Translations under genes and position numbers: made by a program | Part shown: in pieces, positions 16,679 through 29,022 of the stretch | Position numbering within the stretch: position 1 is the stretch's first letter | Layout: each line of letters opens with the position of its first letter | Source: Pseudomonas chlororaphis subsp. aurantiaca | GTDB lineage: Bacteria > Pseudomonadota > Gammaproteobacteria > Pseudomonadales > Pseudomonadaceae | Assembly: GCF_013466605.1 (NCBI RefSeq) | Contig: NZ_CP059162.1 | Location: 4,278,001 to 4,342,000, forward strand | Direction of reading: 5' to 3' | DNA: 64,000 nucleotides | Notes under the pieces: model-generated | Database searches by the model: none | Told to the model about the DNA's origin: nothing | What the model saw: only the letters and a program-made list of their open reading frames with translations

Positions 16679-18277
16679 TCAAAGCTTGCTGTCCAGCGCC
16701 ACCAGCAAGGCTGCGTCCCGCCCGTAGATATCCGGGGCATAGGACAGCTGGCCATGGCTGTCGGCTTGCGCCGTCCAGTACGCGAGCAGGATCGGTATCG
16801 GCGTCGACAACCTGAACTCATGGGTGAGCCCGGTGCTCAGCAACTCGTCGGTACGCACCCGTTCCGCCGGACTCACCAGCAGATCGCGCAGCTGCAACGC
16901 ATGCTCGACCCGTACGCAGCCCGAACTGAAGGCCCTCGGCCCCTTGTTGAACAGCGCCTGGCTGGGCGTGTCGTGCAGGTACACCGAGAACGGGTTGGGG
17001 AACCGGATCGCCATCTGCCCCAGCGGGTTTCTCGGCCCGGCGTCCTGGCGCAGGAGGATATTGCCGGGGTTGTCCCAGTCGATATCCTCCACCGCCAGGG
17101 GATGACCCTCGCTATCGAGCACCTGCAGGTTCTGCCGATTGAGGAAGGACTGGTCACGGCGAATTTCCGGCAGTTTGTCTTCGCGAAAAATGGTCGGCGG
17201 CACCGTCCAGGTCGGGTTCAGGGTCAGGCGCGTGACCTGGGATTTCAGCAAGGGCGTCTGGCGCTCGGCACGCCCTACCTGGGTCCGGGTCTGCCAGACC
17301 GGCACTCCGTCCTGATAGACGATCAACTGCGCCGCGGCCAGGTTGACCAGCAGGCTGTCGGGCTCCATGTCTTGCGCCAGCCAGCGAAAGCGTTCGAGGT
17401 TGATGCGCAGCTGTTCGCGGCGCATCTGCGGGCTGACGTTCAGTTCATTCAAGGTCCCCGCGCCGATCACCCCGTCGGCTTGCAGCGAATGGCTGAGCTG
17501 GAAGCTTTTCACCGCGCTCACCAGGTCGCCGCTGTAAAGGGTATCGCCCTCGTTGGCGAGGGCGCTCAGATACCCCTCCTTGAACAGCCGTTGCGCCAAC
17601 TCCGGCACCCGCGCGTCCCGCATCTGCGGACGCAGCAGCGGCCCGCTGGGCAGCGGCTGCCAATGGGGCAACTCCAGCTGGCGCTGCTGGGCATACAGCT
17701 GGCGCAGGTTCTGATATTGCTCGAGGCTCGGCCGCGCCAGCGCGAAGGCCGCCGGGATGTCCTGCAGGCCGGGCCCGGCGATGGCGAGCACCTGCGCCTG
17801 GCGATCCAGCGGCAAGGGATGGGCGTGCCACATCGGCTCGAAGCGGGCTTGCGACAGACGGCCGTAATGCAGGTCATGCAAGGCTTGCAGGTAATGCTGG
17901 CTGAAGCTCAGGTCGGCGCACAGCGCGTCGCCCGCAAGCGCACTGGCTGGTGACCGGTAGTCGGCCGGGTCCAGGCCATCGTCGGCCAGTTGCTGCAATT
18001 GTGCCTGCAACGCCTCCAAACGTGCGCTGGACGACCAGATCGGCTGGTCACCCTGCTGTTGGTAAAAGGCCTGCAGCAGGCTCTGGGCGGGAATGTCCAG
18101 GTGCGCGGCCACCCCCGGACAGGCATCGGACAATCGAATGAATACCCGTTGCACAGGGTTCTCATGATCGACCGGTACATCCTGAGCAGTCGCGACCAAC
18201 GGCGCAGCGAGCAGGAAAAGGCTCAAGTAACATGCGTGTTTTTTGAACAACTGCTTTACTCCAATCATGGCCATCAT
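16679..18277 (-). CDS. Periplasmic L,D-transpeptidase, YcbB/LdtD-like
   Basis: About 532 residues from the ATG at 18277; an ATG at 18268 is also possible because no clear ribosome site fixes the start. A signal peptide follows (YLSLFLLAAPLVATAQ). A scaffold domain comes next, then a peptidoglycan-binding domain (GDTLYSGDLVSAVKSFQLSH, ADGVIGAGTLNELN), then the YkuD catalytic domain ending in FSSGCVRVEHA with the nucleophilic Cys. YcbB-type enzymes make 3-3 crosslinks in peptidoglycan and can bypass beta-lactam-sensitive enzymes. It is divergent from a second, unrelated-family L,D-transpeptidase. Confidence 0.92.
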   Translation of the reverse strand: MMAMIGVKQLFKKHACYLSLFLLAAPLVATAQDVPVDHENPVQRVFIRLSDACPGVAAHLDIPAQSLLQAFYQQQGDQPIWSSSARLEALQAQLQQLADDGLDPADYRSPASALAGDALCADLSFSQHYLQALHDLHYGRLSQARFEPMWHAHPLPLDRQAQVLAIAGPGLQDIPAAFALARPSLEQYQNLRQLYAQQRQLELPHWQPLPSGPLLRPQMRDARVPELAQRLFKEGYLSALANEGDTLYSGDLVSAVKSFQLSHSLQADGVIGAGTLNELNVSPQMRREQLRINLERFRWLAQDMEPDSLLVNLAAAQLIVYQDGVPVWQTRTQVGRAERQTPLLKSQVTRLTLNPTWTVPPTIFREDKLPEIRRDQSFLNRQNLQVLDSEGHPLAVEDIDWDNPGNILLRQDAGPRNPLGQMAIRFPNPFSVYLHDTPSQALFNKGPRAFSSGCVRVEHALQLRDLLVSPAERVRTDELLSTGLTHEFRLSTPIPILLAYWTAQADSHGQLSYAPDIYGRDAALLVALDSKL

Positions 18278-18391
18278 GGTGATGGTCAACCTCGGCAGTG
18301 GCTGCGAAAAATCGTCCAACCACCTGTAACCAGAACTGCCAGAAGAGCGACAGGACGTCAGGAGCCAAAGTGACTGTGGGGACACTCTAGA

Positions 18392-19105
18392 ATGCTGACC
18401 TTCCTGCGCCGGCTCTGCCTGGCAATGACCACCCTAGGCGCGATCTGCAGCCCTGCGCTCGCCGCCAACAACACGACTCCGCTGCTTTACAACAGCCTCG
18501 CCCACGCCGCTCCAGAACTCAATCCCCAAGTGCTGAAAAGTGCCTTGAGCGCCATGCAGTGCGCCGTCAACAGCGGCGCCAGGCAGGCCCGACACCTGGC
18601 GGTCATCGACTACTCGCAACCCTCCACCGCCCGCCGCCTGTGGATCTTCGACCTGAATAAAAGAACCCTGGTGCTGCGCGACCTGGTCGCCCACGGGCAG
18701 AAATCCGGGGAAAACTTCGCCACCCAGTTTTCCAATCGCATGGGCAGCTTCCAGTCCAGCCTCGGCCTGTTTCGCACCCAGGAAAGTTATGAAGGCAGCC
18801 ACGGTTATTCGCTGCGCATGGACGGCCTGGAGCCGGGCTTCAACGACCTCGCCCGCGATCGGGACATCGTGATTCACGCGGCCGACTATGTGAGCCCCCT
18901 GTGGAGCCGACGCCAAGGGCGCATCGGCCGCAGCCTGGGTTGCCCGGCCGTGCGGCCACAGGTGGCGCGCCAGGTGATCGACCGCCTCAAGGACGGTCAG
19001 TTCATGTTTTCCTGGTACCCCGACCAGCAATGGCTGAAGTCCTCGCCCTATCTCAACTGCCAGCCACGCCAGGTGGCCAGCATTGTCGCCGCCAGCGGCG
19101 GGTAA
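18392..19105 (+). CDS. Murein L,D-transpeptidase-like protein, YkuD_2 family
   Basis: 237 residues with a signal peptide (LCLAMTTLGAICSPALA). The conserved parts LWIFDLNKRTLVLRDLVAHG, RMGSFQSSLGLFRT, DIVIHAADYVS and GRSLGCPAVRP give the His and Cys of the YkuD_2 active site. This family differs from the classical YkuD domain of the neighbour and lacks a peptidoglycan-binding domain. Presumed to act on peptidoglycan in the periplasm, perhaps as a transpeptidase or lipoprotein-release enzyme; its exact reaction is unproven. It converges on the response-regulator gene, with only 13 bases between them. Confidence 0.88.
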   Translation: MLTFLRRLCLAMTTLGAICSPALAANNTTPLLYNSLAHAAPELNPQVLKSALSAMQCAVNSGARQARHLAVIDYSQPSTARRLWIFDLNKRTLVLRDLVAHGQKSGENFATQFSNRMGSFQSSLGLFRTQESYEGSHGYSLRMDGLEPGFNDLARDRDIVIHAADYVSPLWSRRQGRIGRSLGCPAVRPQVARQVIDRLKDGQFMFSWYPDQQWLKSSPYLNCQPRQVASIVAASGG

Positions 19106-19118
19106 CCCCGTTCGCCCC

Positions 19119-20477
19119 TCAACCGGCGGCTGAGGCCGCCGTTTCCGCCTCTTCGGGTATTTTGACGAAGATGCTGTATTTGGCCCCTTCCATCGCTTCG
19201 AAGGCGATGAGCTTGTCCACCAGCGGACCGCTCAGCACCTTGCCGGCATTGAGCAGCAGCATGCCGTTGTCGGCATTGAGGTTGCGCGCCAGGGTCATGC
19301 CGGCAGCCAGGTCCCGAGTGGTCAGGACCCGGACCGTCGGATCGGCCAGGGTGACATCGTTCTGATAGGCCGCGCAGACGCCAACGAAGTCCTCCACCAG
19401 GTCCGGGTCGTAGAGTTTGCCGGCATATTTGCGAATGAACAGCAGCGCCTCATCGCTGTTCATCTGCCGTTCGAGTATCAACCCACGCTGCAGCTCGATG
19501 AAATCCACGGCCAGCTTGAGCCAGCGCGAGCCCAGTGGAATGGCCTCGCCCTTGAGATGATCGGGAAAACCGCTGCCATCCCAGCGTTCCTGGTGATGCA
19601 GGATGATGCGCGCCGCGTCCTTCATCGGCTCCAGGGTCATCAGCAGCGACTCGCTCTGTTTCGGGTAGGCGCGGTACAGGTCGCGCTCGGTGTGGTGCAG
19701 CAAATCCGCCGGCGCGGTCATCATGCTGTCGGTCCAGCTCAGCTTGCCGATGTTGTACAACGCAGCGGCCATGGTCATGTCGCGGCTTTCGCTTTCATCC
19801 AGGCCATGGGTGATGCAGTAGACACGAATCAGTTCGATGATCTGCCGGTTGGTCTGCTTGGCCTTGGGCAAGCGCAGGTTCGCCAGCAGCGAAAACACCT
19901 CGGTGCCGGTCACGTAGCTGCGCTTGAGCTCTTCATAGGCCAGGTCGAGCATGTCGGCGGTCTGTTGCAGCTCGGCGGTGCGCGCCGCAACGCGTTTTTC
20001 CAGGGTCGAGTTGAGTCTCTTCAGTTGCTCGTTCTGCTGCCGGGTCAGCGCTTCCAGACGCTGGCGCTCGCTTTCGGAATGGTGATGGGCCAGAGCCTGG
20101 CGCAGCGTCACCAGCATGTCCTCGTCGTTCCAGGGCTTGCTGATATAGCGATGGATCTGCCCTTCGTTGATGGCCTTGGCGATCAACGTCATATCGGCAT
20201 AACCGGTGAGCAGGATGCGCAGCGTCGATGGATAACGCTGATGGATCTGGGCCAGCAAGGTCGCGCCGTCCATGCCCGGCATCCGGGCGTCGCTCATGAC
20301 CACGTCGACCGGCCGCTGTTCGAGGATTTCCAGGGCCTTGGTACCGCTGTCGGCCAGCAGGATGTCGTAAGGCTGGCCGCGTAACAGCCGGCGAAGGCTA
20401 TTGAGAATCGCTTCCTCATCGTCGACCAGCAGTACCGTCGATCTGTTCTGGGCTGCGCCCGCTGTATGTTCTTCCAT
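19119..20477 (-). CDS. Response regulator with degenerate HD-GYP domain (YN type)
   Basis: 452 residues; the start follows GGGAGGGGGAG. An N-terminal receiver domain (residues about 14-128) has the acidic pair Asp19-Asp20, phospho-acceptor Asp63 (VVMSDARMPGMDG), TGYAD and Lys114. A coiled coil covers residues 132-185. The C-terminal domain follows HD-GYP layout, but the HD pair is replaced by Tyr241-Asn242 (AAALYNIGKL), and the GYP loop reads GSGFP. So c-di-GMP hydrolysis is unlikely. A YN-GYP protein of this design (PA2572) is known from Pseudomonas aeruginosa as a regulator. It faces the c-di-GMP operon across 213 bases, which suggests it belongs to that pathway. Confidence 0.92.
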   Translation of the reverse strand: MEEHTAGAAQNRSTVLLVDDEEAILNSLRRLLRGQPYDILLADSGTKALEILEQRPVDVVMSDARMPGMDGATLLAQIHQRYPSTLRILLTGYADMTLIAKAINEGQIHRYISKPWNDEDMLVTLRQALAHHHSESERQRLEALTRQQNEQLKRLNSTLEKRVAARTAELQQTADMLDLAYEELKRSYVTGTEVFSLLANLRLPKAKQTNRQIIELIRVYCITHGLDESESRDMTMAAALYNIGKLSWTDSMMTAPADLLHHTERDLYRAYPKQSESLLMTLEPMKDAARIILHHQERWDGSGFPDHLKGEAIPLGSRWLKLAVDFIELQRGLILERQMNSDEALLFIRKYAGKLYDPDLVEDFVGVCAAYQNDVTLADPTVRVLTTRDLAAGMTLARNLNADNGMLLLNAGKVLSGPLVDKLIAFEAMEGAKYSIFVKIPEEAETAASAAG

Positions 20478-20690
20478 GTCTCCCCCTCCCCTTTGACTTC
20501 GATCAGACCTGCCTTCTGGGACAGGCTAGATGACTTGTAGCGTTTCGGCATGAATTTGACGCCGGCCGATTAGCGCATACAGGGGAGCCTGACTATGCTC
20601 AAGGCAAAAATGGATTGCATGTCCAGGAAGCAGGAAGGGAAGCCCGATGAGCTTATATACAAGGTCCCCGCTCTGGGTTGGAGCACGACG

Positions 20691-22967
20691 ATGATGGCGT
20701 CGGCAGACCGGACCAACCGGCGAATTCTGATCGTCGACGACACAGTGTCGATCCACGAGGACTTTCGCAAGATCCTCGCCGCCACGGATGCCCCCGAGGA
20801 CAGCCTCAGCGACGCCGAGGCCGCCCTGTTCGGTATGCACCCGAGTGCCACGCTGGAGCATTTTTTCCTCGACTCGGCATTCCAGGGCCGCGAAGCGCTG
20901 AACATGGTGCAAGCGGCGCTGGAACGCAATGCGCCCTATGCCATGGCCTTCATCGACATGCGCATGCCGCCCGGCTGGGACGGCCTGGAGACCATCGAGC
21001 GGCTATGGCAGGTCGACCCCAAGCTGCAAATCGCCCTGTGCACCGCCTATTCCGACTACTCGTGGGAAGACATCGCCGAGCGCCTGCAACTGGGCGACCG
21101 CCTGCTGATCCTGAAAAAACCCTTCGATGCCATCGAGATCCGCCAGATGGCCAGCGCCCTGACCGTCAAATGGCAGATGACCGAAGACGCCGCGCTGAAA
21201 ATGGACCAGCTGGAACAGGCGGTCGAGGAACGCACCCGCGAGCTGGCCGATGCCAACATCATCGTGCAGAACAGCCCCACCATCCTCTATCGCCTGCGCG
21301 GCGAGCCGTCGTTCAAATTAATGTACATCTCCCATAACATCACCAAGTTCGGCCATGTGGCGGCGCAACTGGTGGCCTCGGACGACTGGGCCCAGACGCT
21401 GATCCACCCCGACGACCAGGCCAAGGTCGAGAGCGCCATGCTCCGGGTCCTCGACCGGGATGTGGCGGGAGCGTCCATCGAGTTCCGCATGCGCACCGGC
21501 GACGGTGCCTTCCGCTGGGTGGAAAACCGCTACATCCCGGTGCGCAACGACCAGGGCCAATTGGTCGAAGTGGAAGGGATCATCCTCGACATCACCGAAC
21601 GCAAACTGGCCGAAGAAAAGATGGCCCTGATGGCCCGCACCGACAGCCTGACCGGGCTGGCCAACCGCGCCACCCTGATCGAGCGCCTGCACCAGGCATT
21701 CGCCGCGGCCCGGCGGGGAGCCTCACCCTTCGCGATGTTTTACCTGGACCTGGACCACTTCAAGCGCATCAACGACACCCTCGGCCACCCCATCGGCGAC
21801 CTGTTGCTGCAGGAAGTGTCCCGACGCATCAAGGCCTGCACCCGGGAAAACGATGTGGTGGCGCGCCTGGGCGGCGACGAGTTCGCAATCCTGCAACTGG
21901 ACGTCGACGAGGCCACGCACTGCGCCGCGCTGGCGACGAAAATCCGCGACACCCTGGTGCTGCCCTACTCGCTGGAAGGCAACGAGGTGCGCATCTCGGT
22001 GAGCATCGGCATCAGCCTCTACAGCCCGCAGACCCTGAGCGCCGACAGCCTGATGGCGCAGTCGGACATGGCGCTGTATCGCTCCAAGGACCAGGGCCGC
22101 AACCAGTTCCATTTCCACAGCGAGGAAATCAACCGGGAAGTCACGGAGCGGGTGACCCTGGCCAACGACCTGAAGCTGGCCCTGGAACGCGACGAACTGC
22201 ACCTGCATTACCTGCCGGAAGTCGATCTCGGTACCGGCAGGATCCTCGGCATGGCGGCTCAGATTCGTTGGCTCCACCCCCGGCGCGGCTGGCTCGAGGC
22301 CAAGGATTTCATGCCCGCGGCCGAGAAGACCGGCATTGTCATCGCTCTCGGCCATTGGCAGCTGGACCAGGCTTGCCGGCAGATGAGTGCCTGGCGCGAC
22401 CAGAACGTGGCGCCGCCGTTGATTGCGATCCATTTATCCCTGGTCCAGCTCAAGACCGGATCGGAATTGATCTACGACGTGCTGCGCACCACCACGCGCT
22501 GGGGCATGTGCCCGTGGGACCTGAGATTCGACGTTACCGAGGGCACCCTGGCCCAGACCAAGTGGACCCACAACGACATCCTGCCGAGGTTGTGCGAGCT
22601 GGGCGTGAAGATCGCCATCGACGATTTCGGCACCGAGTATTCCTCGTTCGACTACCTCAAGACCTACAGGGTCAACCACCTCAAGCTTGCCCAGCGCTTT
22701 CTCGACAGCGCCAGCAGCGACCCGGACAACGCCATGACCCTGCGGGCCATCCTCAACTTCGCCCGCGAGGTGGGGATCGGGGTCACCGCTGAAGGGGTGG
22801 AAACCCAGGAGCAGCGCACGACCCTGATATCCAGCGGCACGCCACTGGGGCACTCACCCGCTACGGCAGTCGACAGCGACCAGGCTGGCGAACTGCTCAA
22901 GGCCAGGTCTGTCGCTATGGATGGCAGTGCCTGGTCGGCGGATCCTACGTCGGAGAATTTCAGGTGA
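20691..22967 (+). CDS. Response regulator REC-PAS-GGDEF-degenerate EAL
   Basis: 758 residues from the ATG at 20691, seven bases after GGAG; a longer frame from 20595 adds an unlike N-terminus. The REC domain (about 10-150) has Asp89 in FIDMRMPPGWDG, Thr118 and the KKPF lysine. A PAS domain follows (about 205-315), ending in DITERK. GGDEF (about 325-485) is intact (GGDEF at about 394) with an upstream RxxD inhibitory site (REND). The EAL domain (about 495-755) is badly altered: EAL becomes AAQ, the metal-binding Asn becomes His (AIHLS), KID becomes KLA and the final motif is lost. So it should make c-di-GMP but not degrade it. It is the first gene of the signalling operon and overlaps the next by four bases. 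Confidence 0.92.
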   Translation: MMASADRTNRRILIVDDTVSIHEDFRKILAATDAPEDSLSDAEAALFGMHPSATLEHFFLDSAFQGREALNMVQAALERNAPYAMAFIDMRMPPGWDGLETIERLWQVDPKLQIALCTAYSDYSWEDIAERLQLGDRLLILKKPFDAIEIRQMASALTVKWQMTEDAALKMDQLEQAVEERTRELADANIIVQNSPTILYRLRGEPSFKLMYISHNITKFGHVAAQLVASDDWAQTLIHPDDQAKVESAMLRVLDRDVAGASIEFRMRTGDGAFRWVENRYIPVRNDQGQLVEVEGIILDITERKLAEEKMALMARTDSLTGLANRATLIERLHQAFAAARRGASPFAMFYLDLDHFKRINDTLGHPIGDLLLQEVSRRIKACTRENDVVARLGGDEFAILQLDVDEATHCAALATKIRDTLVLPYSLEGNEVRISVSIGISLYSPQTLSADSLMAQSDMALYRSKDQGRNQFHFHSEEINREVTERVTLANDLKLALERDELHLHYLPEVDLGTGRILGMAAQIRWLHPRRGWLEAKDFMPAAEKTGIVIALGHWQLDQACRQMSAWRDQNVAPPLIAIHLSLVQLKTGSELIYDVLRTTTRWGMCPWDLRFDVTEGTLAQTKWTHNDILPRLCELGVKIAIDDFGTEYSSFDYLKTYRVNHLKLAQRFLDSASSDPDNAMTLRAILNFAREVGIGVTAEGVETQEQRTTLISSGTPLGHSPATAVDSDQAGELLKARSVAMDGSAWSADPTSENFR

Positions 22968-24832
22968 GCCCTTTATCCGTGGCGCCCAATCGGCGGATTC
23001 TGATCATCGACGACACACCGGCGATCCATCAGGACTTTCGCAAGATTCTCAGCCCCGAAGACGAAGGACTGTTGGGCAGCACCGAAGCCTTGCTGTTCGG
23101 CGTCAACAGCAGGCCTCACCAGCACTTCCAGATCGACTCCGCCTACCAGGGCGAAGAAGCCGTGGAACTGGTCAAACGCGCCCAGGCCGAAGGCCGGCCT
23201 TATGCCCTGGCCTTCATCGACATGCGCATGCCACCAGGCTGGGATGGCCTGCAGACCATCGAGCATCTGTGGAAAACCGACCCGCAGTTGCAGATCGCCC
23301 TATGCACCGCGTTCTCCGATTACTCATGGGAAGCCATGGCCGAACGCATCGAGTTCGGCGACCAGCTGTTGATCCTGAAAAAGCCGTTCGACAGCCTGGA
23401 GATCCGCCAGATGGCCAGTGCCCTGACCTGGAAGTGGCAACTGGCGCAGGACGTGGCGAGCAAGATGCGCAACCTGGAACAGACCATCGAGGAACGGGTC
23501 CAGGAACTGCTGAGCGTGTCGCACCTGCTGCATTACGATGTGCTCACCGGGCTGCCCAACAGCACCTTGCTGGGCGACCGCCTGACCCAGCATCTGTCCC
23601 AGTCGCGCCGTCATGACCGCAAGCTGGCGGTAATGTTCATCGGTCTGGACCGTTTCAAACGCATCAACAATGCCCTCGGGCACCCGGCGGGAGACGAAAT
23701 GCTCAAGCTCGTCGCCCAGAGCCTGGCAGCTGCAGTGCGCGAGTCCGACTCGGTGTTTCGCTACGGTTCGGACGAGTTCGTGGTGATTCTTGGCGACATC
23801 CTGCATCCGCAGCAGACCCGGGGGGTGGCCGAAAAACTCCTGGCTGCCGTCAACACCCCTCATTCCGTGGCGGGCCACGACCTGACGGTCACCGCCAGCC
23901 TGGGCATCAGCATCTACCCCGACGACGGCGCCGATGCCGTAACGCTGATCAAGAAGGCCGAGACCGCCATGCGTAACGTCAAGGATTGCGGTCCCAACGA
24001 CTTCAGCTTTTTCATCGACGACATGAACCTGCGCGCACGCCAGCAGCAGACCCTGGAAACCGGCCTGCGCCTGGCATTGCAGCGCGAAGAGTTCGTCCTG
24101 CACTACCAGCCCAAGCTGGACCTGGCCCGGGGCACGGTGGTCGGCGCCGAGGCACTGGTGCGCTGGAACCGGCCCGACCATGGCTGGGTGTTCCCCTCGG
24201 ACTTCATCCCGGTGGCCGAAGACAGCGGATTGATCGTCGCCCTCAGCCAATGGGTATTGCGCCAAGCCTGCCTGCAATCCCAGGCCTGGCAAAAGCAGGG
24301 CCTGCCCCCCATCTGCATGTCGGTGAACGTGTCGGCCATCGATTTTCGCCAGCGCGACTACGTCGAGCGTCTCACCCGCACGCTGACCGAGACCGGGCTC
24401 GACCCGAAGCTGCTGGAGCTGGAAATCACCGAAAGCGTGCTGATGCAGAACGTCGACGCCACCATCGCCACACTCCGCGCCATCAAGCAGCTGGGAGTGC
24501 GCCTGGCCATCGACGACTTTGGTACCGGCTACTCGAGCTTGAGTTACCTGCAGAAATTCCCGGTCGACGTGCTGAAGATCGACCAGTCGTTCGTGCGTGA
24601 CCTGGGTACCGACAGCAACGACGCAAAACTGGTCAGCAGCATCATCGACCTGGGCAAGAGCCTGAACCTGAGCATCATCGCCGAAGGGGTCGAGACCCTC
24701 GAACAGCTGGACTTCCTCAAGCGCCACCACTGCGAGGAAGGCCAGGGCTTCTACTTCAGCAAAGCCGTGGAACCCGAGGTATTCGCCCGCTTTCTGACCG
24801 ACTCCCTGCAACCTCACCTGCCCCATCCATGA
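22964..24832 (+). CDS. Response regulator REC-GGDEF(degenerate)-EAL phosphodiesterase
   Basis: 622 residues from a GTG that overlaps the previous stop (GTGA), preceded by CGGAGAA. The REC domain is closely similar to that of the previous gene (phospho-acceptor Asp86). There is no PAS domain. The GGDEF motif reads GSDEF (about residue 268), with an RxxD (RESD) before it, so cyclase activity is doubtful; it may sense GTP or c-di-GMP. The EAL domain is complete: AEALVRW (Glu396), VNVS, ITES, IDDFGTGYSS, LKID and AEGVET. It is therefore a likely c-di-GMP phosphodiesterase. Together with the previous gene it forms a cyclase/phosphodiesterase pair under shared control. Confidence 0.93.
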   Translation: MSPLSVAPNRRILIIDDTPAIHQDFRKILSPEDEGLLGSTEALLFGVNSRPHQHFQIDSAYQGEEAVELVKRAQAEGRPYALAFIDMRMPPGWDGLQTIEHLWKTDPQLQIALCTAFSDYSWEAMAERIEFGDQLLILKKPFDSLEIRQMASALTWKWQLAQDVASKMRNLEQTIEERVQELLSVSHLLHYDVLTGLPNSTLLGDRLTQHLSQSRRHDRKLAVMFIGLDRFKRINNALGHPAGDEMLKLVAQSLAAAVRESDSVFRYGSDEFVVILGDILHPQQTRGVAEKLLAAVNTPHSVAGHDLTVTASLGISIYPDDGADAVTLIKKAETAMRNVKDCGPNDFSFFIDDMNLRARQQQTLETGLRLALQREEFVLHYQPKLDLARGTVVGAEALVRWNRPDHGWVFPSDFIPVAEDSGLIVALSQWVLRQACLQSQAWQKQGLPPICMSVNVSAIDFRQRDYVERLTRTLTETGLDPKLLELEITESVLMQNVDATIATLRAIKQLGVRLAIDDFGTGYSSLSYLQKFPVDVLKIDQSFVRDLGTDSNDAKLVSSIIDLGKSLNLSIIAEGVETLEQLDFLKRHHCEEGQGFYFSKAVEPEVFARFLTDSLQPHLPHP

Positions 24833-24857
24833 AGTTGTGTCTGGTAAGGAAACCTCC

Positions 24858-25811
24858 ATGTCGTCACTCGCATTACTCCTTTCAACTGGCTTGCTGTTCG
24901 CTCCAGGCGCCGCGGCTGCGCCATTGGAAGGACCGCTCAAACCCCTCCCCGCAGTACCGGCGCTGGACAGCAAACGGGTCGAACTGGGACGACGATTGTT
25001 CAACGACCCACGCCTGTCGGTGAACAACAGCCTGTCGTGCGCCAGTTGCCATCGCCTCGACCAAGGCGGTGCCGACACCGTCCCGCACTCCCTGGGCTTC
25101 GATGGCAAGCCGGTGGCGGTCAATACCCCGAGCGTGTTCAACGCCAGCCTGAACTTCCATCAGTTCTGGGACGGTCGGGCCGACACCCTGGAAGACCAGG
25201 TGCATATCGTGGTGCAGAGCCCCAGTGAAATGGGCAGTGACTGGAAAGTCGTGGTGCAGCGCATCGCCGACGACCCGACCTATCGCACCGCCTTTGCCGA
25301 CGCCTACCCAGACGCCGTGACCCAGAGCAATATCCAGGGCGCCCTGGCCGACTACGAGCGCACCCTGCTCAGTGCCAACTCGCGCTTCGACCAGTACCTG
25401 GCGGGCAACACCGAGATCCTCGACATCGAGGAAAAATACGGCTACCAGCGCTTCCAGGAATACGGCTGCATCGCCTGTCACCAGGGGGTGAATATCGGCG
25501 GCAACATGTTCCAGAAATTCGGCGTGCTCGGCGACTACTTCGCGGCCCGGGGCAATCCGACCGAGGCCGACCTGGGGCGGTTCAACGTCACGGGCGAAGA
25601 AGAAGACCGCAATGTGTTCAAGGTGCCGAGCCTGCGTAACGTCGCGGTTACCGCGCCGTACTTCCACGATGGTTCGCAAGCCACCCTCGAAGGCGCCGTG
25701 GCAGTGATGTTCAAGTACCAGTTGGGGCGTACGCCGTCCGAGGAAGACAAACGCCTGATCGTCAAGTTTCTCAAGACCCTGACCGGCGAATGGGAAGGCA
25801 AGCCCCTATGA
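24858..25811 (+). CDS. Di-haem cytochrome c peroxidase (CcpA/MauG family)
   Basis: 317 residues from the ATG at 24858, seven bases after AAGGA. A signal peptide (ALLLSTGLLFAPGAAAA) leads to a periplasmic protein with two haem-c motifs, CASCH (Cys61) and CIACH (Cys204). The family motif VNTPSVFNASLNFHQFWDGRA is present, with VPSLRNVAVTAPYFHDGS near the end. Such enzymes reduce hydrogen peroxide with electrons from cytochrome c. Its stop overlaps the start of the sensor kinase (ATGA), so it is made with the signalling proteins. A sensor or signal-modifying role is possible, but that is inference. Confidence 0.93.
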   Translation: MSSLALLLSTGLLFAPGAAAAPLEGPLKPLPAVPALDSKRVELGRRLFNDPRLSVNNSLSCASCHRLDQGGADTVPHSLGFDGKPVAVNTPSVFNASLNFHQFWDGRADTLEDQVHIVVQSPSEMGSDWKVVVQRIADDPTYRTAFADAYPDAVTQSNIQGALADYERTLLSANSRFDQYLAGNTEILDIEEKYGYQRFQEYGCIACHQGVNIGGNMFQKFGVLGDYFAARGNPTEADLGRFNVTGEEEDRNVFKVPSLRNVAVTAPYFHDGSQATLEGAVAVMFKYQLGRTPSEEDKRLIVKFLKTLTGEWEGKPL

Positions 25812-27619
25812 AAGTATCTCGTCGCGTGAGCATACTGTTGCTGTCCGCCCTCGCGGTCCTGCTGGCTTCGATCCTGTTGTTTCTCTACCTCAAGTCCAGG
25901 TCCGACCAGACCGTGGCCTACACCGAATCCCGCGACCTGATCCGCCAGATCAAGCAGCAGGATTCGCTGTGGGAGAACGAAATACTCAAGGCCAGGGTGG
26001 CCATCACCCACAACTACGACCCGCTGGTTTCACCGCTGGGCGAGATGACGCGCCTATGGCAGAAGTTCGACTCGATGGAGGCGCAGAACCAGCGCAACGA
26101 TTCGCAGCTGTGGCGCAACGCCCACGACGGCTACCTGAGCGCAATAAAGGAAAAGACCCGGCTGGTGGAACAGTTCAAGTCGCACAACTCTGTGTTGCGC
26201 AACTCCCTGGCCTTCCTGCCGACCGCCGAGGACGACATCCAAGAGCAATTGGCCCAACTGCACGACGCGGACAAATTGCAGCTGCAGAACATCGCCACCG
26301 ATACCTACGACCTGTTGCTCAGCAGCCTGGAGTTCGCCCAGGTCACCTCCGCCGACAGGGCCGCGGACATTCTGGTGGGCCTGAACAAGCTGGCGGTCAA
26401 CAAGGAGCGCTTGCCCACGGAGTTCCATGAGCCGATCGATACCCTCAGCAACCACGTCGGGCTGATCCTGCGCGAGCAACCCAAGGTCAACCGCCTGCTC
26501 GAGGAAATAGAAGGGGTAGCGGTCGACGAACGCCTGGACGACATCACCATCCTGCTCAACCGTGACCAGCAGCAGGCCGAGGTCGTTGACCAGCAGTACC
26601 ATTTCTACCTGCTGCTGTTTTCCGCGCTGCTGGTGCTGCTGCTGATCTGGCTGGGCATCCGCCTGATTCGCAGTTTTGCCGAGATCAACCAGATGAACCG
26701 GGCCCTGGTGGCCGCCAACGACGAACTCGAGCAAAGGGTCGAAGAGCGCACGCGCCAACTCAAGGACACCCAGAGCGAGCTGCTCGACACCGCCCGCCAG
26801 GCCGGCATGGCGGAAATCGCCACCAACGTCCTGCACAACGTCGGCAACGTGCTCAACAGCGTGAACATCTCCGCCGACCTGGTCAGCCGCAAACTGCGCA
26901 ACAGCAAGGCCCAGGGGCTGGGCAAGGCGATGCAACTGATCAACGAGCACAAAGAGGACCTGGGCAGCTTTCTCACCGAGGACGCAAAGGGCAAGTTGCT
27001 GCCCGGCTACCTGAACCAGCTGGTCGAGGCCATCGACCTGGAACAGCAAGGCATGACCGAGGAACTGACGCAACTGAGCAAAAGCATCGATCACATCAAG
27101 GACATCGTCGCCACCCAGCAATCCTATGCGGGTGCCAGCAGCCTGCTGGAACCCCTGTCGGTCAGCGAACTGCTCGAAGACGCGCTGCGCATGAATTCCG
27201 GCGCCCTCACCCGCCACCATGTGACCGTGCTCAAGGATTACGCCGATGTGCCACGCATCATGGGCGACAAGCACCGCCTGCTGCTGATCCTGATCAACCT
27301 GATCAGCAACGCCAAGTACGCCATGTCCGACCTGACCAACCAGACGCGCAACATGACCCTGGCGGCAGCGGTGGTCGACGGCGAAACCTTGCAGATCAGC
27401 GTGCGCGACGAAGGCGAAGGCATCGCCCCGGAAAACATGACCCGCATCTTCGCCCACGGTTTCACCACCCGTAAGGAGGGCCATGGGTTCGGCCTGCACA
27501 GTTGCGCACTGGCGGCCATCGAGATGAATGGCCACCTGACCGCCCACAGCGACGGTCCGGGCAAAGGCGCGCTGTTCGTCCTGCAGATCCCCCTGATCCT
27601 CGCCGAAGGTGAGTCATGA
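25808..27619 (+). CDS. Membrane sensor histidine kinase with DAHL-type periplasmic domain
   Basis: 603 residues from the ATG that overlaps the peroxidase stop. An N-terminal membrane helix (ILLLSALAVLLASILLFLYL), a helical periplasmic domain (about 35-255) like the DAHL sensor domain, and a second membrane helix (FYLLLFSALLVLLLIWLGIRL) are visible. A coiled coil leads to the kinase: the probable phospho-acceptor is His343 in NVLHNVGNVLNSV, the N box is NLISNAKYAM, and the G boxes are DEGEGI and GHGFGLHS. The periplasmic domain could sense the adjacent peroxidase or its products. It lacks a receiver domain, so it must phosphorylate the REC proteins encoded nearby. Confidence 0.92.
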   Translation: MKVSRRVSILLLSALAVLLASILLFLYLKSRSDQTVAYTESRDLIRQIKQQDSLWENEILKARVAITHNYDPLVSPLGEMTRLWQKFDSMEAQNQRNDSQLWRNAHDGYLSAIKEKTRLVEQFKSHNSVLRNSLAFLPTAEDDIQEQLAQLHDADKLQLQNIATDTYDLLLSSLEFAQVTSADRAADILVGLNKLAVNKERLPTEFHEPIDTLSNHVGLILREQPKVNRLLEEIEGVAVDERLDDITILLNRDQQQAEVVDQQYHFYLLLFSALLVLLLIWLGIRLIRSFAEINQMNRALVAANDELEQRVEERTRQLKDTQSELLDTARQAGMAEIATNVLHNVGNVLNSVNISADLVSRKLRNSKAQGLGKAMQLINEHKEDLGSFLTEDAKGKLLPGYLNQLVEAIDLEQQGMTEELTQLSKSIDHIKDIVATQQSYAGASSLLEPLSVSELLEDALRMNSGALTRHHVTVLKDYADVPRIMGDKHRLLLILINLISNAKYAMSDLTNQTRNMTLAAAVVDGETLQISVRDEGEGIAPENMTRIFAHGFTTRKEGHGFGLHSCALAAIEMNGHLTAHSDGPGKGALFVLQIPLILAEGES

Positions 27620-29022
27620 ACAACTCGATAAACCGGCGCGTCCTGCTGATCGACGACACCCCTGCGATCCACGACGACTTCCGCAAGATCCTCACCCCCA
27701 AGACCGGCGACAGCGCCGACCTCGATGCGATGGAAAGCGCGCTGTTCGGCAGTGCGCCGAAAACCGCCGCCACAGTGTTCGAACTGGACTCCGCCTACGG
27801 TGGCCAGGAGGGCCTGGGCAAACTGCTGGAGGCAGCAAGCAAGGGCCAGCCCTACGCCCTGGCCTTCGTCGACATGCGTATGCCCGATGGCTGGGATGGC
27901 GCGCAAACCATCGAAGAGTTGTGGAAACACGACCCACTGCTGCAGGTGGTGGTGTGCACCGCCTATTCCGACTACTCCTGGGACGAGTTGCTCGATCGCC
28001 TGAACGGCCATGACCGCCTGCTGATCCTGAAAAAGCCCTTCGACAATATCGAAGTCCAGCAGATGGCCAACACCCTCACCACCAAGTGGGAAATGACCTT
28101 GCGGGCGCAACTGCAGATGAGCGAGCTGGAAGAACGGGTGGAGCAACGCACCCTGGCGTTCAAGCAGGCCAGCGCCGCGCTGCAGCGGGAAATCGACGAG
28201 CGCAAGCTGCTGGAAAGCCAGCTGGTGCAATCGGAAAAGCTCGCCTCCCTGGGTCAGTTGGCCGCCGGGGTCGCCCATGAAATCAATAACCCGATCGGCT
28301 TCATTTCCTCCAACCTCGGCGCCCTGGACAATTACTTCAAGCGCCTGCAGGAGATGCTCGAGGCTTACGGCAATGCCGAAACCGGGATCGGTGCCAGTGA
28401 GCTGCGCGATCAGTTGAAACAGCTGCGCACGGACATCGAGCTGGATTTCCTCCTCGAGGACATTCCGCTGCTGATCAAGGAGTCCAAGGACGGCATCGGC
28501 CGGGTCAGCCAGATCGTCAAGGACCTCAAGGACTTTTCCCGGGTCGATTCGACCCAGGAATGGCAATGGGCGAACCTGCAACAGGGCATCGACTCGACCC
28601 TGAACATCGTCGCCGCCGAGATCAAGTACAAGGCCGACGTGATCAAGGAGTACGCCGAGCTGCCGGAGGTCGAGTGCCTGCCTTCGCAGATCAACCAGGT
28701 GGTGATGAACCTGATCGTCAACGCCGCCCAGGCCATGGGCAACGAACGGGGCACCATTACCCTGCGCAATGGCGTCGAGGGCGAGAACGTGTGGATCGAA
28801 GTGGCCGACAACGGCTCGGGCATCCCGCCGGACAGCCTGCAGAAGATCTTCGACCCGTTTTTCACCACCAAGCCCGTGGGCCAGGGCACGGGGCTTGGGC
28901 TGTCGCTGTCCTACGGCATCGTCAAGAAGCACCGCGGCGACATCTCGGTGCGCAGCGAGGTCGGTGTCGGCACCACCTTCCGCGTCGAGCTTCCCGTGCA
29001 CCAGAGCAGAAAGGCCGGCTGA
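27616..29022 (+). CDS. REC-histidine kinase hybrid (N-terminal receiver)
   Basis: 468 residues; the start overlaps the previous stop (ATGA). The N-terminal REC domain (Asp86 in [12 protein letters not shown]) is of the same subtype as in the two c-di-GMP proteins (shared PAIHxDFRKIL start and KKPFD end). A coiled coil follows, then HisKA with His221 ([11 protein letters not shown]), and a complete ATPase domain ([28 protein letters not shown]). No membrane segment is present, so it is cytoplasmic. It may receive a phosphate from the DAHL-type kinase and act further along the relay. It is the last gene of the operon; a repeated palindromic element follows. Confidence 0.92.

Follow-up and report, generated by a model that had tools for sequence, protein, structure and literature searches.

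A periplasmic di-haem protein as the putative sensor of a probable branched, NosP-type c-di-GMP phosphorelay in Pseudomonas

Given that the signals of most enzymes of c-di-GMP (cyclic di-GMP) metabolism are unknown, we wondered what provides the input to a locus of Pseudomonas chlororaphis subsp. aurantiaca in which a cytochrome c peroxidase-family protein shares an operon with two c-di-GMP enzymes and two histidine kinases, and where that input is sent. The locus occupies positions 19119-29022 of the window, by which we mean the whole stretch of 64,000 nucleotides that was analyzed (contig NZ_CP059162.1, positions 4,278,001 to 4,342,000) and to which all coordinates below refer. The locus probably encodes a phosphorelay with two branches and a periplasmic input, that is, a NosP-type relay in which the cytosolic nitric oxide (NO) sensor is replaced by a periplasmic di-haem protein that acts mainly as a sensor. 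On the more specific proposal that a di-haem cytochrome c peroxidase (CCP) has turned into a dedicated periplasmic sensor driving a TorS-like kinase in place of NosP, and into a pseudo-peroxidase in one clade, we are evenly divided. If true, a c-di-GMP relay of soil-dwelling Pseudomonas would have a periplasmic input based on haem, and the DAHL domain, which one paper of the literature searched names, would gain a function. The full relay, the short-circuit fusion, the sensor swap, and the catalytically dead sensor would then form a natural series for testing phosphorelay wiring with genes that evolution has itself recombined; the annotation “cytochrome c peroxidase” may then denote a sensor. 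A term search of the main text of a 2022 review with a census of c-di-GMP stimuli found the word “peroxidase” nowhere (PMC8846402), and a literature search by title and start of the abstract, with most subscription journals outside its scope, recognized no comparable operon.

The operon runs on the plus strand and begins with two c-di-GMP genes, which we call gene 1 and gene 2. Gene 1 (20691-22967, with a further in-frame ATG upstream, at 20595) encodes a REC-PAS-GGDEF-EAL protein whose GGDEF motif is intact and whose EAL domain is dead, a candidate for an optional cyclase output; gene 2 (22964-24832) encodes a REC-GGDEF-EAL protein with an altered GSDEF motif and an intact EAL domain, a candidate for an optional phosphodiesterase output. 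They are followed by the periplasmic di-haem CCP-family protein (24858-25811; Pfam CCP_MauG), hereafter the peroxidase, whose ATG lies 25 bases past the gene 2 stop and which has another in-frame GTG at 24837, by a DAHL membrane histidine kinase (25808-27619; DAHL+HATPase_c, His343) with a periplasmic sensor domain at 25895-26599, and by a REC-kinase, or g5 (27616-29022; REC+HisKA+HATPase_c, acceptor Asp86). Genes 1 and 2 overlap in GTGA, and ATGA overlaps join the peroxidase to the DAHL kinase and the DAHL kinase to the REC-kinase. The operon is faced, on the minus strand, by a response regulator (19119-20477; Pfam REC+HD_5) with a REC domain (Asp63) and a degenerate HD-GYP domain in which YN stands for HD. 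The original prediction had described these genes, their overlaps and motif states, and a REC subtype shared by gene 1, gene 2, and the REC-kinase, all of which was confirmed by reading frames, Pfam, and alignments, as were its phosphoacceptors Asp89 (gene 1) and Asp86 (gene 2). It was also right about the YN motif of the facing regulator but missed that this protein belongs to the NosR family (596.3 bits against NCBIfam NF053512, with a cut-off of 400) and left it at the edge of its model.

The motif states recur in the alignments, whose rows include the window and, for genes 1 and 2, a paralogue from locus L057. Gene 1 keeps its GGDEF motif in 19/19 rows and has lost the Asp of the KxD motif of its EAL domain in all 19; gene 2 reads G[S/A]DEF in 22 of 24 rows, GGDEF in one, and RSDEF in one, with its EAL domain intact; and the HD pair of NosR is YN or HN in 26/26 rows, all of which keep the REC Asp. 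The special REC subtype has three copies in the genome of the window (a single contig of 6.95 Mb), every one at this locus. The original prediction took the three for duplicates that arose within the system; the subtype is met in other families of the class as well, and a structure search for its solved relatives returned generic REC domains only, at E 0.002 or worse. One genome (G005) has a second, solitary copy of gene 1 outside the locus (L057:4945-7338), with the REC acceptor Asp changed to Asn.

Two NosP relays described in other bacteria resemble parts of this arrangement. NO-bound NosP of Legionella is reported to activate NahK, which phosphorylates NarR, and cyclase activity falls (PMC11237717, PMC8846402, PMC8738867); the degenerate HD-GYP protein NosR of Burkholderia receives its phosphate from NosK, a kinase under the control of NosP (PMC12570481). 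With the latter relay, the window shares a NosR-family degenerate HD-GYP regulator and a HEINN-type kinase (HEINNP in the REC-kinase). The REC-kinase core appears to be NosK-type when judged against FIST- and NosR-linked kinases: identity is 57% and 58% to the NosR-linked kinases of loci L113 and L117, and in Sideroxydans (L116), where NosR-like, FIST, and kinase genes stand in a row, 55% to the REC-kinase core and 40% to NosR. Unlike NosK, the window kinase bears a REC domain and sits below a membrane kinase, and a periplasmic di-haem protein stands at the input. With the Legionella relay, the locus shares the kinase core type and a REC-GGDEF-EAL target; it differs in its input, which consists of the periplasmic di-haem protein and the DAHL domain, in splitting cyclase and phosphodiesterase over two proteins, and in the addition of the NosR branch. 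Two genomes of the class have a FIST protein, a kinase (45% and 40% identical to the DAHL-kinase core), and a REC-GGDEF-EAL protein of the same REC subtype, which is the gene order of the Legionella nosP operon, and a kinase of this core type clusters with the REC subtype at 15 of 26 distant loci. FIST (PF08495) has no match in the genome of the window, so that the NosP common to both relays is missing and the locus is not itself a NosP system. By analogy, the Pseudomonas locus looks like both relays in series under a different head.

In the mechanism that we propose, the secreted di-haem protein would signal to the putatively TorS-like DAHL domain a condition that its haem detects, be it peroxide, NO, or redox state, and the DAHL kinase, as the first relay step, would phosphorylate the special REC domains of gene 1, gene 2, and the REC-kinase. 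Phosphorylation on genes 1 and 2 may tune cyclase and phosphodiesterase in an optional branch, and the REC-kinase would in turn, as the second step of the other branch, phosphorylate NosR. Periplasmic di-haem protein and transmembrane kinase would together stand in for the cytosolic haem sensor NosP.

In a first genus sample of 59 genomes, the REC subtype is found in 26 (the window's own included), all of which have NosR and the REC-kinase, 25 the peroxidase and the DAHL kinase, 23 gene 2, and 17 an intact gene 1; the five-gene order, when sought in other genomes, thus recurs within the genus. Among the 398 genomes of a larger sample, 152 have the peroxidase clade, 154 the REC-kinase or its core, and 151 the DAHL-kinase core, a count that takes in kinase-core paralogues and three genomes with no peroxidase (G411, G422, and G453). 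Both peroxidase and g5 core are found in 146 genomes, the peroxidase alone in 6, the g5 core alone in 8 (one of them, G546, probably a contig edge), and neither in 238 (Fisher p 5e-90, which overstates the evidence since the genomes are related). Of the 152 peroxidase genomes, 146 match the DAHL-kinase core at some place, and the other 6 have the fusion treated in the next paragraph. At the level of loci, the DAHL kinase is the next gene at 58/58 mapped peroxidase loci, with an overlap in 57 (mechanical reading frames); this count refers to a mixed set of loci, with the window uncounted, and not to all 152 peroxidase genomes. The adjacency bears out that the peroxidase belongs to the locus. 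In total, 72 genus loci were mapped, of which 26 were unselected (those of 25 REC-bearing genomes plus the second locus of G005) and the rest were picked as unusual or divergent search rows or as named loci, the latter from the best 80 of at least 584 relatives. Reading frames are incomplete or broken in L111, L222, L224, L227, and L248, and gene 1 is split in L066. The nearest named DAHL-kinase sequences are those of Pseudomonas chlororaphis, at 97% identity.

Natural variants of the locus bear on its wiring, and their sequences support the proposed one. In six genomes (G369, G418, G436, G641, G663, and G057), the DAHL sensor and the kinase core of the REC-kinase form a single fusion protein, with neither the first kinase core nor the REC domain. 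Genes 1 and 2 are absent from these genomes, peroxidase and NosR are present, and it is the DAHL part that the peroxidase accompanies. The junction, examined in five of the fusions, lies in a shared LEQRVEERT-like linker, and since the fusions nest within the full-locus clade of the DAHL tree, they are derived. The REC-kinase is missing from six peroxidase genomes (G366, G380, G474, G501, G523, and G542), which occupy three to five separate positions in the DAHL tree, three of them within one unresolved group. NosR has no genome-wide match in five of these and is broken by a stop in G501; the peroxidase, the DAHL kinase, and gene 2 are still there in all six. Of the 58 mapped peroxidase loci, 12 have neither gene 1 nor gene 2, and NosR and the second kinase core are kept in 12/12: six are the fusions, and six unfused loci (L065, L068, L215, L228, L229, and L234) keep NosR and the REC-kinase. 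No mapped peroxidase locus (0/58) is without both branches. A search of 58 genomes found NosR in 32, namely, in every genome with the g5 core (27/27), in four as an orphan, and in G008. In the four orphans, which lie apart from any kinase of either core, Asp63 is changed to Ala and one residue of the acidic pair is lost, and of the three REC-kinases without a DAHL kinase, two, from sister genomes, have a damaged REC domain. Given these sequence patterns, a relay step that leads to the facing NosR is the better reading of the second kinase.

Other variants concern the head of the relay and the shape of its kinases. P. borbori and two relatives (the set G355, G497, and G495) carry a FIST protein and a kinase between the DAHL kinase and the REC-kinase, with NosR located elsewhere in the three genomes; FIST/FIST_C was Pfam-checked in P. 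borbori, where the inserted kinase is 67% identical to the DAHL-kinase core. In G495 (78% complete), the peroxidase is gone, the DAHL kinase is truncated, with most of it missing, and the NosP-kinase pair is kept. Three genomes have only a bare kinase core and NosR, the kinase having the shape reported for Burkholderia NosK. An extra kinase with a related core and no Pfam-recognized sensor lies upstream of gene 1 in G366 (L210:15218-16999), and in G583 (L217:7907-9421) a gene-1-type REC is joined to the REC-kinase core, as if all that lay between the homologous REC domains had been deleted.

The peroxidase itself has the sequence features of its family. It scores 191.2 bits against PF03150 (CCP_MauG; cut-off 25.6), has a plausible signal peptide, and has PDB relatives down to E 1.6e-75 (1iqc, 3o5c, 9qdt, and others). 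Together with this family score, two haem c motifs (25038-25052 and 25467-25481), a PSEMG loop with the catalytic Glu (25221-25235), and a conserved C-terminal Met (25707-25709) place it in the di-haem CCP family; with the bacterial members of this group, it shares the family, two CxxCH motifs, a Trp, the xEMG loop, and a Met-containing C-terminal motif. Unlike them, it is the operon partner of a kinase, and one clade has kept the protein without the catalytic loop. The loop, intact in the window protein and in 53 of 59 rows, is lost in five peroxidases that form this clade, all from fusion genomes. Both haem motifs are kept in these proteins, dN/dS of 0.105-0.221 indicates purifying selection, and no other PF03150 protein was found in their genomes. 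Since the loop is lost in this five-genome clade yet purifying selection persists, peroxide catalysis is unlikely as the role conserved everywhere, and we consider the protein more likely a sensor than a peroxide-consuming source of the signal. In the peroxidase of Pseudomonas sp. TH41 (L160:6090-7196), FIACH stands where the second CxxCH haem motif would be, a case unique among the 59 rows.

It is conceivable that the peroxidase is instead an output or a bystander, an ordinary periplasmic detoxifying enzyme that is co-transcribed with a kinase sensing something else. In favor of this reading, the residues for catalysis are intact in the window protein and in 53 of 59 rows, and as the sole match to PF03150 in the genome of the window, it could be the periplasmic peroxidase of the cell. 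We consider this unlikely, however, since the peroxidase remains with the DAHL sensor although the kinase core is exchanged in the fusions, and since purifying selection on the protein continues in the loop-less clade, whose genomes gave no second match to PF03150. The model of the original prediction, in which catalytic sensing of peroxide or respiratory state chiefly feeds an opposed cyclase/phosphodiesterase pair and the HD-GYP protein is peripheral, appears more doubtful still. A phosphorelay from a periplasmic input is also our best reading, and the model agrees with the intact loop in 53 of 59 rows and with gene 2, which 23 of the 26 sample genomes have, but catalysis as a universal role does not fit the five genomes that lost the loop. 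The pair does not hold as the core of the system, either: gene 1 is intact in just 17 of the 26 genomes, both genes are absent from 12/58 loci, all with NosR and the second core (6 as fusions), and NosR accompanies the g5 core throughout. Finally, there is very little to recommend a MauG-like mechanism, in which the di-haem protein would oxidatively modify the DAHL domain and modification, not ligand binding, would set kinase activity: the family includes MauG, an oxidizer of a protein partner, and the adjacency to one sensor domain is strict, but the NCBIfam models of MauG and MbnH reject the protein (148 against a cut-off of 443.85 bits and 185 against 362.85 bits), the loop-less clade should be incapable of such a reaction, and the C-terminal motif has the Met of CCPs and not the Tyr of MauG.

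If the peroxidase is a sensor subunit, the DAHL domain would be its receiver. The DAHL kinase scores 168.5 bits against the DAHL model (cut-off 38) and has two hydrophobic helices, near residues 3-32 and 262-293. A structure model of the full-length kinase was informative for the kinase core only, and the sensor domain was then folded by itself; its predicted fold is helical and possibly TorS/McpS-like. TorS is the sensor of a kinase that is worked by a periplasmic partner, as proposed here for the DAHL domain. In TorT-TorS, which senses trimethylamine N-oxide (TMAO), that partner is a binding protein, whereas here it would be a c-type di-haem protein, and identity is 7% over the aligned residues. 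A second clade of DAHL kinases (L197, L198, L199, L200, L201, L202, L203, L205, L206, and L208), present in some of these genomes outside the locus, stands amid unrelated genes, none of the ten mapped paralogues beside a peroxidase; the four neighbors checked by Pfam were a porin (OprD), a permease, Band_7, and DUF4337, and the queries used recognized no response regulator nearby.

Several observations weigh against a sensor-fed relay of this kind. The loop is intact in the window and in 53 of 59 rows, so that catalysis may matter in most species. The matches of the predicted DAHL fold to TorS and McpS have sequence identities of 7-9%, and chance alone can give helical bundles high scores. In 349 genomes of the phylum, the DAHL kinase gave five matches at E 1e-60, four in the genus and the fifth over the kinase core only, and no peroxidase was found at the 26 mapped REC-subtype places in 18 other genomes of the class (19/274 matched, own included); with no peroxidase-DAHL pair outside the genus, the sensor assignment rests on one genus. 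The NosR tree, contrary to the DAHL tree, puts G007, which has no fusion, together with the fusion genome G369, so that a single event and exchange look alike. NosR occurs without the g5 core (E 1e-110) in 5 of 32 genomes, namely, the four decayed orphans, which form one clade, and G008, where an intact NosR lies next to a diverged kinase. Among the REC-kinases without a DAHL kinase, the chimeric one of G583 has an intact, gene-1-like REC, which counts against a strict rule. More generally, every variant goes back to a single evolutionary event or a few of them and does not amount to a set of independent trials.

The divergent intergenic region between NosR and gene 1 (20478-20690) holds two conserved elements, GGCTAGATGA and GACTATGCTC, which look like promoter parts; 8-mers from the former are found in 13-15 and from the latter in 14-17 of 29 such regions. 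Control by Anr/FNR was considered and rejected: the Anr-like site at 20493-20506 is not conserved, and 8/10 matches are reached by 4 of 55 intergenic regions, where 100 Markov resamplings yield 6.1 on average. Across the whole window (1-64000), there are 33 Anr/FNR-like palindromes with at most two mismatches versus 13 expected, the largest shuffle giving 26. No RNA element reached the Rfam gathering score between 18000 and 30000. On its other side, NosR adjoins two YkuD L,D-transpeptidase genes (16679-19105), and the same YkuD pair flanks the partial locus L224 and three FIST-bearing loci (L230, L231, and L232), all of them with an operon that has no NosR next to it.

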